Positions 42,272-50,502 of a DNA stretch of 64,000 nucleotides are shown here, in pieces. Location: the NCBI RefSeq assembly GCF_016865445.1, contig NZ_AP024412.1, positions 806,001 through 870,000 on the forward strand. The letters are read 5' to 3'. Source of the DNA: Mariniplasma anaerobium (GTDB taxonomy: Bacteria; Bacillota_I; Bacilli_A; Acholeplasmatales; Acholeplasmataceae). The notes beneath the pieces are model-generated. The model did no database searches and had not been told where the DNA came from. It was given only the letters and a program-made list of their open reading frames with translations. How positions within the stretch are numbered: the first letter of the stretch is position 1; each line of letters starts with the position of its first letter. Position numbers and translations under genes: made by a program.

Positions 42272-44035
42272 TTATAAAATTTGAATAGTAAACCAAAAAT
42301 GTACACCTTTTTCAACATTTTTCACATGGCATTCAGATCGAAATTGATTAAGTGTTTGATTTACGATATAAAGTCCAAGACCTGTGGAACCTTCATGACG
42401 ACTGCGTTCTTTACTTACACGATAAAACGGTTCAAATAGACGTTCAATTTCTTCATCAGGAATAGTAATTCCATAATTTGTAACACTGATAGTTAAATCA
42501 TTTTTGTCTTGGATAACTTTGATTTCAATAGTTTCATTTGTAGGTGTATATTTTATTGCATTGGTCAATAGATTTGACAAAACTAATTCTAATTTTTGTG
42601 GATCCGAGAGTAATTCAACATGAAGCAAATCCATTTTTATCTCAAGTTCTTTTTGAAAAGCCAATAATTGTAAACGTGAGACAACTTGTTCAATTAAATT
42701 ATCGATATAAAACTTTTGATAATATTGTTTATACTGTGGAGTATCTGATTGATAAACAAGCATCATATTTTTAATCATTTTATTCGTATTTTTTATTTCT
42801 TGTTGAATCAATTTAAGTTGTTTAGTTTGTTCCGCTTTAGTTTCAAATAGATTATGTTCCAACGCTTCAGAAGAAGCTTGTATCACACTTAAAGGTGTTT
42901 TTAACTCATGAGACATTCCGCGAATAAATTCTTTTCTTCTCTCATCATTTTTATTTTCAATTTCTAAGGATTGTGACAATTGTTTATTTTGTTTTGATAA
43001 TTGTGATAAAGTCATTTCTAAATTGGCACTTAAAGTATTGATGTTGAAAGCTAATTCTTGAAATTCATCTTTTGTTTCAATTGTTATTGGGTTATGAGAG
43101 AAATCAAGATTGCTTAATTTTTTTGCAGCGTTATTTAGGGTAACCAGTGGTTTAGAAAATTGTTTTGAATAGAAAAAGGCAGCAATCATTAACACGCCAA
43201 CAACTATGATGAAAGTATAAATGTTTAAAGTTCTTACTGCAGAAACGATGCGTGTTATTTGTGACATTGGATATACTGCAATCAATGTATATGGAGTATC
43301 CTCAATTGATGTGTTTACAAAATAAACAAGACTTTGTTCATTATTTGTTTCATTGGTGCTTACATAATAATAAGATGATTCACTAAAAACTGTCAAATCT
43401 TCATAGTTTTCTGATAAGATATTTAATATTTCATTTGAGATGATTGGATTTATTGGACTTTGAGTAGTATTTTTAATTACCTCAGAACTTAAGATCTCTC
43501 CTGTGATTGTAAATGTAGAGCTAAGATCTAAATCTGGTGAATAATCGCTAAACATAGGATTGATTCTCCCGCTACCAGAATGAATAATACGTTCACCATT
43601 CACACTCAGTGACACAGGGATATAGCGTTCTGTTGGCGCATGATATACAATTGTTGCATCTACTGTAGAACCAATTAAATACACATCATCGTGATTTGGC
43701 ATATATATTTCATAAGTTATATTATCTTGTATGACTTCAACGATTTGTAGTTGCAGTAAGCCCAATTGATTTGTAAGACTGTTAGTAGGCACGAGTAGAG
43801 AAGTTGTTTGTGTTTCTTGTGAGAAATCCAATATAATTTCATTTATATCAGCTACGGATTCTAAAGGTAAAATATTTTCAATTTCATTTTTAGTCGTATT
43901 AATTGTACGATTCGTGTAAAATTGTTCAAATACTGTGCTTTGAAATAAAAAAATAACTAAGAAAATTAAAATATATAAGAGTGTTAACGATAAAAATAGT
44001 TTTTTGATAAAACTTTTTTTAATATTTTTGAACAT
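42272..44035 (-). CDS. Membrane sensor histidine kinase
   Basis: 587 residues. TM1 (about 12-34), a ~230-residue extracellular sensor, TM2 (about 270-292), HAMP (about 293-350), a coiled coil, then the kinase core: phospho-acceptor His376 in MSHELKTPLSVIQ, N box LLTNAIKYTP and G box STGLGLYIVNQ. The kinase looks catalytically complete. The sensor domain has no recognised ligand motif. It overlaps the response-regulator gene by 17 nt. Its likely targets are the neighbouring genes with CACAA repeats. Confidence 0.92.
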   Translation of the reverse strand: MFKNIKKSFIKKLFLSLTLLYILIFLVIFLFQSTVFEQFYTNRTINTTKNEIENILPLESVADINEIILDFSQETQTTSLLVPTNSLTNQLGLLQLQIVEVIQDNITYEIYMPNHDDVYLIGSTVDATIVYHAPTERYIPVSLSVNGERIIHSGSGRINPMFSDYSPDLDLSSTFTITGEILSSEVIKNTTQSPINPIISNEILNILSENYEDLTVFSESSYYYVSTNETNNEQSLVYFVNTSIEDTPYTLIAVYPMSQITRIVSAVRTLNIYTFIIVVGVLMIAAFFYSKQFSKPLVTLNNAAKKLSNLDFSHNPITIETKDEFQELAFNINTLSANLEMTLSQLSKQNKQLSQSLEIENKNDERRKEFIRGMSHELKTPLSVIQASSEALEHNLFETKAEQTKQLKLIQQEIKNTNKMIKNMMLVYQSDTPQYKQYYQKFYIDNLIEQVVSRLQLLAFQKELEIKMDLLHVELLSDPQKLELVLSNLLTNAIKYTPTNETIEIKVIQDKNDLTISVTNYGITIPDEEIERLFEPFYRVSKERSRHEGSTGLGLYIVNQTLNQFRSECHVKNVEKGVHFWFTIQIL

Positions 44036-44702
44036 TCAATTTATACCCCACTTTAAATATAGTTTCAATCATGTCGCCGTAAGGATTTAATTTTTTTCTG
44101 AGCATTTTAATATTTGTATCGACTACACGTTCTTCAACATATACATCCATACCCCAGACTTCATCTAAAAAATCGGCACGCGAAAGCACTTCATTAGGAT
44201 TTTTTCCCATAAATACAAGCATATCAAATTCAGTTTTTGACAATTGCAATCGCTGATGATCAAGAGTAACCGTATGCGCGGGAATATTGATAGATACCTG
44301 GTTAAACTCTAAAATATGTCCATTTTGTTTATGTGAAGAGTCAATTCTCTGTAAAATCGCTTTAACTTTCATCACTAAAACTAGTGGCGAAAACGGCTTT
44401 GTAACGTATTCATCAATTTGTAATTCATAACCTTTTAGCTGATCTTCTTCAGTATCTAATGCAGTTAATAATATGATGGGGACATCGCTATCTTCGCGAA
44501 TTTTTTCTGCGACTTCAAACCCATCTACTTTAGGCATCATGATGTCTGAACATACAAAATCAACATTATGTTTCTTAAAAGATAATATACCGTCTAAACC
44601 ATTTGAAGCAGTCAATACAGTAAATCCTTCTTTTTTAAAATAGGATACCAATATTTCAAGAAGTGATGTTTCATCTTCGATTAGTAAAATAGTTTTATTC
44701 AT
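44019..44702 (-). CDS. OmpR/PhoB-family response regulator
   Basis: 227 residues. Receiver domain: acidic pocket IEDE, phospho-acceptor Asp53 in VCSDIMMPKVDG, LLTALD and the Lys in EYVTKPFSP. C-terminal winged helix: LSKTEFDMLVFMGKNPNEVLSR and EERVVDTNIKMLRKKL recognition helix. The ATG at 44702 follows GAGGTG; an in-frame ATG at 44726 precedes that site. OmpR-family proteins bind tandem half-sites about 11 nt apart, exactly the spacing of the CACAA repeats at its own promoter and those of 44943, 46030 and 46682. Confidence 0.93.
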   Translation of the reverse strand: MNKTILLIEDETSLLEILVSYFKKEGFTVLTASNGLDGILSFKKHNVDFVCSDIMMPKVDGFEVAEKIREDSDVPIILLTALDTEEDQLKGYELQIDEYVTKPFSPLVLVMKVKAILQRIDSSHKQNGHILEFNQVSINIPAHTVTLDHQRLQLSKTEFDMLVFMGKNPNEVLSRADFLDEVWGMDVYVEERVVDTNIKMLRKKLNPYGDMIETIFKVGYKLNVQKY

Positions 44703-44724
44703 AAAAAACACCTCGTATAACAAC

Positions 44725-44764
44725 ATTATAACAGTAATCTATCATTTTATGTGAGAGTTTTGTG
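44725..44764 (-). promoter_or_regulatory. TCS promoter with two phased CACA repeats
   Basis: Minus strand: CACAAAA (44758-44764) and CACATAA (44747-44753), 11 nt apart, then 16 nt to the consensus -10 TATAAT (44725-44730). The downstream repeat occupies the -35 position, as expected for autoactivation by an OmpR-type regulator. Confidence 0.65.
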
Positions 44765-44871: not shown

Positions 44872-44912
44872 CACAAAAATATCACAACTTTTTTCAAAAG
44901 ATTTAATATACT
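44872..44912 (+). promoter_or_regulatory. FMN-binding gene promoter with phased CACA repeats
   Basis: CACAAAA (44872-44878) and CACAACT (44883-44889), 11 nt apart; 17 nt further is the -10 TATACT (44907-44912). There is no -35 consensus; CACAACT takes its place. Confidence 0.65.
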
Positions 44913-44942
44913 ATGTTTAATAAAAAAAATATGGAGGAAAAA

Positions 44943-45923
44943 ATGATTATAATTCTTATCATTATCTTGGCATTAATCGCTTATGTTTATCCGAAAATAA
45001 TCACGAAAACATTTGTACCTACTACAATTTTATTCACTTTAATTAGCGCAACTGCATTTTTTGTTGACTTTTCTTTACTAAGTCCATTTAAAACTGGGTT
45101 TTTGGGGTTAGCATTTTTTATAATTGTCATGTTTGCAGGTGCTATGCCTAAACATTCAGTTTTGGAAAAGAAATTTAAAAGTGTCCGTAAAGAATACTCT
45201 ATTTACGGATTCATTACAATTACACCTCATGCTATTTTATTTTTCATTGATATGCTTAACGAAACAATGAATTTTGAGTGGTTTGGTGTTATGACTTACT
45301 TAATTATGGTTCCCTTATTTATAACGTCTTTCTATATAATAAGGAAAAAGATGTCTAACAAAACTTGGAAAATATTACAAAAAGCATCCTATATTATATA
45401 TTTACTTCTGTATATTCATTTAATTTTGTTTTATACAGGAAACAATATTTATCTATATACAGCTTTATTTGTTTTTTATGTAGCACTCAAAAATTATAAT
45501 CATTTTTCTTTTTCAAAAACTGTCATCAGAAAATTGATAATTTCTAGTGTCGCTGTGGTACTTATTTTATCTATTGCTTATATAGGAACAGATGGTCAAA
45601 TCATCGCATCTCATGCTGTTAATAAACTATACATGTCAGATTTATCAATTGAAGATGGAGTGTATTATGGATCAGCTGATGGTTATGAAGACTACACTGT
45701 TGTTGTTGAAGTCATCATTGAACAAGGCGTCATCAAGTCTATTATTCTACTTGATGATGGAAGTAGTGAGCCAAGAAAAGAATATGACTATACAGAAATC
45801 GCAAAAGATGTCATTGAAGAAATCATTGAAAAACAACACACAGATATAGATGTTGTTAGTGGGGCGACCCATACAGTTGATGGAGTCGTCAACGCTGTCT
45901 TAGATGCTTTACTAGAGCATTAA
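44943..45923 (+). CDS. Membrane protein with C-terminal FMN-binding (flavinylated) domain
   Basis: 326 residues: about seven helices (1-215) with the look of a ferric-reductase-like core, then an extracellular FMN_bind domain (about 235-326). SGATHT (306-311) matches the [S/T]GA[S/T]x[S/T] signal at which ApbE transferases link FMN to the final Thr. GVYYGSADGYEDYTVVVEV is the domain's typical start. It probably carries electrons across the membrane to an external acceptor (inference). The ATG at 44943 follows TGGAGG; the in-frame ATG at 44913 overlaps the -10 region. Confidence 0.82.
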   Translation: MIIILIIILALIAYVYPKIITKTFVPTTILFTLISATAFFVDFSLLSPFKTGFLGLAFFIIVMFAGAMPKHSVLEKKFKSVRKEYSIYGFITITPHAILFFIDMLNETMNFEWFGVMTYLIMVPLFITSFYIIRKKMSNKTWKILQKASYIIYLLLYIHLILFYTGNNIYLYTALFVFYVALKNYNHFSFSKTVIRKLIISSVAVVLILSIAYIGTDGQIIASHAVNKLYMSDLSIEDGVYYGSADGYEDYTVVVEVIIEQGVIKSIILLDDGSSEPRKEYDYTEIAKDVIEEIIEKQHTDIDVVSGATHTVDGVVNAVLDALLEH

Positions 45924-45942
45924 ATGCATTTCATAACTCTAT

Positions 45943-45993
45943 CACAACTAAGCACAACTTCATCACAACTTCATGCATCAAAGCATATAAAAT
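45943..45993 (+). promoter_or_regulatory. Copy 1 promoter with three phased CACAACT repeats
   Basis: CACAACT at 45943-45949, 45953-45959 and 45964-45970 (10- and 11-nt steps). 17 nt after the last is TAAAAT (45988-45993), inside TATAAAAT. No -35 consensus. The arrangement is that of class II activation by an OmpR-family regulator. Confidence 0.7.
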
Positions 45994-46029
45994 AGAAGTA
46001 TCTTAAAAAAAGAAAAGGAGAAAAACAAA

Positions 46030-46512
46030 ATGAATTTATTATTAGCAGGTGTCATGTTATTTTCAGGAGGAAGCGTAATCGCAATGCAAAACGAAGAAAT
46101 TAGCGATGTAGTCAATGATACAGTTGAACATGTTTCACAATATGTACAAAATCGTTTAGGTCGTCGTATAGCAGATACAGTATCAGAAACTGGATTTCCA
46201 TATCCTCAAGAAGCTTTCTTATCTACATTAACAGAAGATCAAGTATTTGCCATCACATCTGAAATTGATGTCATCAACGCAACATATGATTGGTCAAATA
46301 TGACAGAAGAAGAAATTAGTGTAGCACTTCAAGAAGTACATCAAATGCTTGATGACCTTTATACTGAACTTGGCGTTGAAGCACCACAAACTCAAAATCA
46401 ATACCGTGGAGCAAATAGCAAAGCAAAAGGTAAAGCGTCAAGCGAAAATGCTGGAACATATGATGGCGAATGTCCATATGACGATATCGTCGATGATTCA
46501 GACATATTATAA
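46030..46512 (+). CDS. Exported small protein of unknown family, copy 1
   Basis: 160 residues. A hydrophobic N-terminus (NLLLAGVMLFSGGSVIA) resembles a signal peptide but has no positive residue before the core, which is atypical. The rest is helical and acidic (ISDVVNDTVEHVSQYVQNRL, TEEEISVALQEVHQMLDDLY), then a Gln/Asn/Gly/Lys linker (QTQNQYRGANSKAKGK) and an acidic tail ending DGECPYDDIVDDSDIL with one Cys. Strong AAAAGGAG site. No family recognised. Presumed target of the adjacent TCS. Confidence 0.8.
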   Translation: MNLLLAGVMLFSGGSVIAMQNEEISDVVNDTVEHVSQYVQNRLGRRIADTVSETGFPYPQEAFLSTLTEDQVFAITSEIDVINATYDWSNMTEEEISVALQEVHQMLDDLYTELGVEAPQTQNQYRGANSKAKGKASSENAGTYDGECPYDDIVDDSDIL

Positions 46513-46594
46513 TTTAGAAAAATATTTATAAACTTATGTCTGATGAAGTTAGATAACTTAGTTTTTAAAAGATAAAAATTATTCACTATTCTAT

Positions 46595-46645
46595 CACAAC
46601 TAAGCACAACTTCATCACAACTTCATGCATCAAAGCATATAAAAT
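46595..46645 (+). promoter_or_regulatory. Copy 2 promoter with three phased CACAACT repeats
   Basis: Identical to copy 1: CACAACT at 46595-46601, 46605-46611 and 46616-46622, then TAAAAT at 46640-46645. Confidence 0.7.
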
Positions 46646-46681
46646 AGAAGTATCTTAAAAAAAGAAAAGGAGAAAAACAAA

Positions 46682-47164
46682 ATGAATTTATTATTAGCAG
46701 GTGTCATGTTATTTTCAGGAGGAAGCGTAATCGCAATGCAAAACGAAGAAATTAGCGATGTAGTCAATGATACAGTTGAACATGTTTCACAATATGTACA
46801 AAATCGTTTAGGTCGTCGTATAGCAGATACAGTATCAGAAACTGGATTTCCATATCCTCAAGAAGCTTTCTTATCTACATTAACAGAAGATCAAGTATTT
46901 GCCATCACATCTGAAATTGATGTCATCAACGCAACATATGATTGGTCAAATATGACAGAAGAAGAAATTAGTGTAGCACTTCAAGAAGTACATCAAATGC
47001 TTGATGACCTTTATACTGAACTTGGCGTTGAAGCACCACAAACTCAAAATCAATACCGTGGAGCAAATAGCAAAGCAAAAGGTAAAATGGCAAGCGAAAA
47101 TGCTGGAACATATGATGGCGAATGTCCATATGACGATATCGTCGATGATTCAGACATATTATAA
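46682..47164 (+). CDS. Exported small protein of unknown family, copy 2
   Basis: 160 residues, identical to the 46030-46512 product except that the linker reads KGKMASEN instead of KGKASSEN. Synonymous positions are also identical, so the copy is recent or kept uniform by gene conversion. Unlike copy 1 it is followed by a strong terminator (47198-47252). Two copies with separate promoters suggest selection for dose. Confidence 0.8.
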   Translation: MNLLLAGVMLFSGGSVIAMQNEEISDVVNDTVEHVSQYVQNRLGRRIADTVSETGFPYPQEAFLSTLTEDQVFAITSEIDVINATYDWSNMTEEEISVALQEVHQMLDDLYTELGVEAPQTQNQYRGANSKAKGKMASENAGTYDGECPYDDIVDDSDIL

Positions 47165-47197
47165 TTTAGAAAAATATTTATAAACTTATTCCCTTAC

Positions 47198-47252
47198 AAA
47201 AGAACTTATTCCTAGACACAACGAAATACTTGTGAATAGGATAGGTTCTTTT
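47198..47252 (+). terminator. Terminator after copy 2
   Basis: AAAAGAAC (47198-47205) pairs with GTTCTTTT (47245-47252); inner TATTCCTA/TAGGATAG extends the stem. T-rich downstream. Confidence 0.8.
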
Positions 47253-47422: not shown

Positions 47423-47534
47423 ACTTAAAGAGTTGCTTTTGATTAAACGCTAAATAAAGCCGTTTTAAGCGTTTACGTAATAAAAAGCAATTCGGTATGA
47501 TTGAGATGGGTTGTATGACCTATTTTGCTACAAT

Positions 47535-47590
47535 TTTACACCCCTAGCGAGAATTTTTACACCCCCACCTAAAAAAAATGCACCCCTAAA
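47535..47590. repeat. Three iterated TTTACACCCC-type repeats (IS21-like end)
   Basis: Units ACACCCC at 47538 and 47559 and GCACCCC at 47580, exactly 21 nt apart. IS21-family ends carry such multiple transposase-binding repeats. No istA or istB gene is present. Confidence 0.5.
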
Positions 47591-50161: not shown

Positions 50162-50502
50162 TGGTGGAGATGAGGGGAATTGAACCCCTGTGCAAAACAC
50201 TTCATAACATACTTTCTACATGTTTATTTTATTTATATTTTCTTATGGTTAACTAAACAAACAAAAGTCAAACATTATATCCTAAAGTATTCGTTTAACA
50301 GACTAGGAAATCTGAGAAGTATAACTTACTGAATTGGACCGTGTATGAACCGTAAGTAAATTCATAGTTGGCTCGCACCTATTCTTAGGCAGCGTAAGAA
50401 AAATTTTGGTTTCCGGTTATTAGATAACCTCGGCTTTTTTACATGAGCAACCATGACATGCTTATATGTTATTCCATGCCGTGACGAATCCAGAACATCC
50501 CC
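50162..50502 (-). ncRNA. ssrA: tmRNA
   Basis: 341 nt. The 5' end GGGGATGTTCTGGATTCG and the 3' end (T-arm GGTTCAATTCCCCTC, acceptor, CCA at 50162-50164) form the alanine-tRNA-like domain; a 7-bp acceptor stem pairs GGGGATG with CATCTCC. The tag template most likely reads GGA to TAA at 50414-50385, encoding GNQNFSYAA after the charged Ala, shorter than the common LAA-ending tags. It rescues stalled ribosomes. One-piece form, with its own promoter and terminator. Confidence 0.95.

Follow-up and report, generated by a model that had tools for sequence, protein, structure and literature searches.

CpxP, Spy and ZraP are two-component-regulated envelope proteins. Among regulators of the OmpR/PhoB family, ArcA binds direct repeats that lie 11 bp apart, often with more than two repeats to a site, and PhoB boxes are spaced alike (PMC3798270). 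In the window, the 64,000-nucleotide stretch analysed here of the genome of Mariniplasma anaerobium, which is related to wall-less bacteria, a gene for a small protein lies in two near-identical copies beside a two-component system with an OmpR/PhoB-type regulator. The features of the locus are as follows.

42272–44035, minus strand: sensor histidine kinase with HAMP, HisKA and HATPase domains (domain search)
44019–44726, minus strand: OmpR/PhoB-type response regulator, with TCACAA repeats before the gene (domain search, repeat scoring)
44913–45923, plus strand: membrane protein, Ferric_reduct fused to a C-terminal FMN_bind domain, with a TCACAA repeat before the gene at 44872–44889 (domain search, repeat scoring)
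45930–45970, plus strand: TCACAA-like direct repeats at 10–11 nt spacing before copy 1, a proposed operator (repeat scoring)
45938–46537, plus strand: copy 1, comprising promoter region, gene and 25-nt 3' flank (self-alignment, genome search)
46030–46512, plus strand: gene copy 1, 160 aa, with hydrophobic N-terminus, helical core and acidic tail, reading KGKASSEN (ORF, alignment, AlphaFold)
46435–46438, plus strand: three-difference site, GCGT in copy 1 and ATGG in copy 2 (47087–47090) (alignment)
46538–46589, no strand: unique spacer, 52 bp, 21% GC (flank comparison with shuffles)
46582–46622, plus strand: the same TCACAA-like repeat array before copy 2, a proposed operator (repeat scoring)
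46590–47189, plus strand: copy 2, comprising promoter region, gene and 3' flank (self-alignment, genome search)
46682–47164, plus strand: gene copy 2, 160 aa, reading KGKMASEN (ORF)
47198–47252, plus strand: strong hairpin after copy 2, a probable terminator, −22.1 kcal/mol, z −4.95 (folding against shuffles)

Alignment at an offset of 652 shows 597 of 600 positions to be identical between 45938–46537 and 46590–47189, with mismatches only at 46435 (G/A), 46436 (C/T) and 46438 (T/G). The first-pass annotation had described a 600-bp duplication with three clustered changes and two intact copies, and it was right on both counts; the ORFs at 46030–46512 and 46682–47164 are complete, with 160 aa each. 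Its term ‘tandem’ holds in that the copies stand side by side in the same orientation, the form of a recent tandem gene duplicate, but they do not abut head to tail: the period of 652 exceeds the duplicated unit by a unique spacer of 52 bp. This is the sole direct repeat of at least 60 bases in the window (20-base seeds). Exactly two copies exist in the genome (1,898,628 bases, 2 contigs), the whole of which was searched without finding a third copy or a diverged paralogue. On the 5' side of 45938, TTCA (45930–45933) is common to both copies; mismatches cluster again at 45934, 45935 and 45937, and the boundary of the copies lies there. From the sequence, the duplication looks real and recent.

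A repeat of this length is short enough to mislead short reads, and one cluster alone separates the copies, as judged from the assembled sequence, so that two variants from mixed strains might have been merged in assembly into a false second copy. The contig that carries the repeat (1,885,846 bases) nevertheless resolves two rRNA operons, with two complete 23S genes at a distance of 1.27 Mb, and the spacer between the copies is unique, which makes a false copy unlikely; the assembly as a whole has a completeness of 99.98 and a contamination of 0.52. We consider an artefact of this kind most improbable, and the assembly difference that the first-pass annotation had offered as one source of the three changes is unlikely on the same grounds (the resolved 23S genes and the unique spacer).

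The likeness of the 52-bp spacer to the 3 kb on either side does not go beyond that of shuffled controls. A plain head-to-tail duplication was rejected for this reason: it would leave a second copy of the spacer, so that three routes come into question: gain of the spacer, loss of its outer copy, or homogenisation confined to the inner 600 bp. Later gain or loss of the spacer is possible. Homogenisation would imply an older duplication in which gene conversion kept the copies identical while flanks and spacer diverged, with the three-base patch either a relic or a newly arisen change. Spacer and outer flanks indeed have nothing in common next to 600 bp of near-identity, as if the inner tract alone had been homogenised, and the noncoding stretches 5' and 3' of the gene match as closely as the gene does; the nearest relatives (genomes G110 and G464), however, carry the small gene in single copy and the absence of a diverged paralogue from the genome leaves no sign of age. 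An old, converted pair is thus a rather unlikely reading, albeit one to be taken seriously.

From copy 1 to copy 2, the three differences replace GCG by ATG in codon 136 and TCA by GCA in codon 137, that is A136M and S137A, which is the exchange of AS for MA noted in the first pass; there are no synonymous differences between the copies. Three random changes among 600 bases would all fall within 4 bases with P = 5.0e-5, which makes one multi-base event, as had been proposed, the better reading, and the best reading of the sequence is a single multinucleotide mutation. Two of the mechanisms put forward for that event fared less well. Conversion from a third copy is unlikely since the genome has only two, and no donor for the variant patch, as a gene conversion tract would call for, was found in the genome or nearby. 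A templated switch is not shown: within 1.5 kb, the sole match of at least 7 bases that spans the patch is an opposite-strand 7-mer, which is within the chance level by our own estimate, and no template can be named from it. Through the patch, copy 2 has gained over copy 1 an ATG that is in frame and preceded by AAAAGG (47077–47089). The ATG at 47087 may be an internal start for a 25-residue acidic tail peptide.

The window protein has no curated Pfam match, and the five Pfam families found below threshold do not include LTXXQ; the LTXXQ profile does not place it in the Spy/CpxP family. Fifteen aligned members gave only scattered weak matches among the best 25 of 65 Pfam families and nothing consistent among the best 25 of 30 NCBIfam families, and a sequence search of solved structures gave a best E of 0.13. 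The members align over an N-terminus that is short and hydrophobic, a conserved core (LTEEQ...ID..NATYDW.NMTDEE...LG) and an acidic tail that varies, and the hydrophobic start suggests a small protein that is exported or anchored in the membrane. AlphaFold predicts helices at residues 24–54, 69–85 and 93–114 of the window protein with a mean pLDDT of 58.9; the tail, including codons 136–137, lies under pLDDT 50, and the change at these codons in the low-confidence part of the model is probably neutral. Four genomes (G156, G132, G098 and G291) have the core repeated within a single ORF, so that the second matches in the first three and one of the three in G291 are internal repeats and not extra genes; G291 has a second small gene besides. 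Doubling thus recurs in the family. A two-repeat model of an Izimaplasma-type relative is better (mean pLDDT 69.7). In a check for a cradle-shaped helical fold, neither the single-repeat nor the two-repeat model matched a solved structure at E ≤ 0.001; the best match of the latter, VIA (Z 5.0, 54 aligned residues, r.m.s.d. 2.6), is within noise for helical proteins, and Spy, CpxP and ZraP are absent among the fold matches listed. The proteins form an undescribed family of small helical proteins, probably exported. As the family has no name to search by, we make no claim that it is absent from print.

The small protein has no match in four genus mates, and of the 88 genomes of its own family only the one that carries it here has a match at E ≤ 1e-3. 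First single-protein scans of genome-contig and viral-contig collections returned no relative. In a class-wide draw (own genome included), 17 of 395 genomes match at E ≤ 0.01, with strong matches in f14, another taxonomic family of the ‘Candidatus Izimaplasma’ lineage (Izimaplasma-type; 49 genomes), and weaker true-looking relatives in G101, a genome of another family. Nine weak genome matches from the window's own taxonomic family (E 0.0138–0.253), mostly inside larger ORFs, were dropped as chance, as was a 35-residue match in Alteromonas (L096). By profile search the small-protein family is present in 14 of the 49 f14 genomes; the kinase is found there at E ≤ 1e-60 in eight, six of which carry the small family, compared with 8 of the 41 others (Fisher P = 0.004). 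For the window kinase, the four genus mates offer no ortholog (29% identity at best); in the kinase tree it pairs with that of G110 (support 100/99). The window protein groups with those of G110 and G464 in the small-protein tree (support 99/99), from which G101 and its L083 gene were omitted; neither the alignments nor the operator count include L084, the second and weaker relative in G101. The regulator, kinase and small genes of G110 lie next to one another, and the kinase-regulator pair of G101 neighbours the small gene in divergent orientation. Since kinase and small protein group with one Izimaplasma-type lineage and are absent from the four genus mates, the block of kinase, regulator, reductase and small gene, or its core, was probably acquired horizontally, and the simplest account has the block reach the window species first and the duplication come later.

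The flanking peptidase gene is retained in the genus mates, and G003 retains the HAD and transporter genes as well; other genes occupy the space between, and the stretch from peptidase to HAD is variable across the genus. This variability, and the apparent movement of the small-protein family between taxonomic families in the trees, would also suit a second copy that came separately from a related donor and was inserted beside the first. Identity at 597 of 600 positions, noncoding parts included, would however require nearly the same donor, and no such donor was found; we judge a separate arrival very unlikely. At seven further loci (L137–L143), each in a different Izimaplasma-type genome, the kinase-regulator pair lies in conserved position beside a ParA/ParB-like pair (named by eye). 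Near small-gene relatives at L075, L084 and L077 there are genes resembling those for copper-transport ATPases, HMA-domain proteins or an ArsR-type regulator (annotated by eye), neighbours that hint at a role in metal stress.

Direct repeats about 11 bp apart, of OmpR/PhoB type, precede both copies of the gene, each array scoring 11 of 12 (shuffle P = 0.015 for copy 1 and 0.010 for copy 2), and lend support to the separate promoters that the first-pass annotation had assumed. The element CACAACTNNNNCACAACT with at most two mismatches occurs six times in the window (0.38 expected); genome-wide it occurs 12 + 8 times (20), hardly above the 10 + 5 (15) of a reversed control. Of 18 upstream regions of small genes, 11 (in 9 of 16 genomes) score at least 10 of 12 at 11-nt spacing and seven score 9 or less, with a cut-off set post hoc, after the data had been seen, and with related genomes. 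All but one of the 11 exceed shuffles at P < 0.05, the exception being G110 (P = 0.17). The kinase is present in 7 of the 9 genomes with repeats and in 1 of the 7 without (G098), a difference (P = 0.02) that is subject to the same post hoc cut-off and relatedness; presence was taken from the f14 search at E ≤ 1e-60 and, for the window and G101, from inspection of the loci. G208 and G464 have repeats and no kinase. The upstream regions of the regulator at eight other loci (L083 and L137–L143, one of only 45 nt) score 9 of 12 or less, so that self-regulation is suggested for the window species and G110 only. From the arrays, the neighbouring sensor system probably switches on the small gene.

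Downstream, the spacer hairpin does not go beyond shuffles (z −1.0) and none is comparable to that at 47198–47252; with a strong hairpin only after copy 2, transcription that runs on from copy 1 through copy 2 may raise output further. The Ferric_reduct/FMN_bind fusion gene is not beside the kinase-regulator pair in the other loci examined; genus mates have the reductase part only (34–46% identity), and in G002 a separate ORF matches the FMN_bind part. Elsewhere in the window are two adjacent 21-nt TTTTACACCCC-like copies, 76% alike (47534–47575), and a tmRNA gene on the minus strand (50162–50502) with the tag GNQNFSYAA.

We favour, as moderately probable, a recent in-place duplication of a two-component-regulated gene for an exported protein, followed by one multinucleotide mutation in its flexible tail. 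Under this recent duplication, kinase, regulator, reductase and small gene would form one two-component regulon in which the phosphorylated regulator binds the TCACAA repeats and activates each copy from its own promoter; the small protein would be a helical protein that works on the outer side of the membrane, in stress or as a partner of the sensor. Two equally regulated copies would double output, and a dosage benefit, for which the first-pass annotation supposed selection, is plausible. The mutation in codons 136–137 of one copy would have come after the duplication. A bolder extension, which we regard as unlikely, is that the family serves a transferable two-component system in Acholeplasma/Izimaplasma-type bacteria in the manner of CpxP/Spy (a stress chaperone and sensor feedback partner), its dose doubled here and its copies beginning to diverge in function, with the ATG of copy 2 (47087) as a possible start of a tail peptide.

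As biology the duplication is ordinary, though the protein family in which it took place is undescribed. Clean, apparently recent and marked by one multi-base difference, it is useful for dating and for work on mutation spectra. The larger value is the lead to a family of exported proteins that has no name and for which an operator is predicted. It seems to move between families of wall-less bacteria together with one two-component system, and doubling recurs in it, as a gene here and as repeats within the protein elsewhere.

Like CpxP, Spy and ZraP, the window protein is small, exported-looking and helical, has LTEEQ-like motifs and is linked to a two-component system; it differs from them in lacking an LTXXQ match and a fold match, and a functional parallel is speculative. 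Recent bacterial tandem gene duplications in general likewise have neighbouring intact copies that are near-identical, point the same way and carry a promoter region each, whereas the present pair has a unique spacer and one multi-base cluster in place of scattered changes. The cluster resembles multinucleotide mutation and short-range template switching (PMC7954356) in that several neighbouring bases changed in one event, but here there is no convincing template nearby. The TCACAA repeats at 11-nt spacing have the pattern expected for an OmpR/PhoB-type regulator, as with ArcA and PhoB (PMC3798270).
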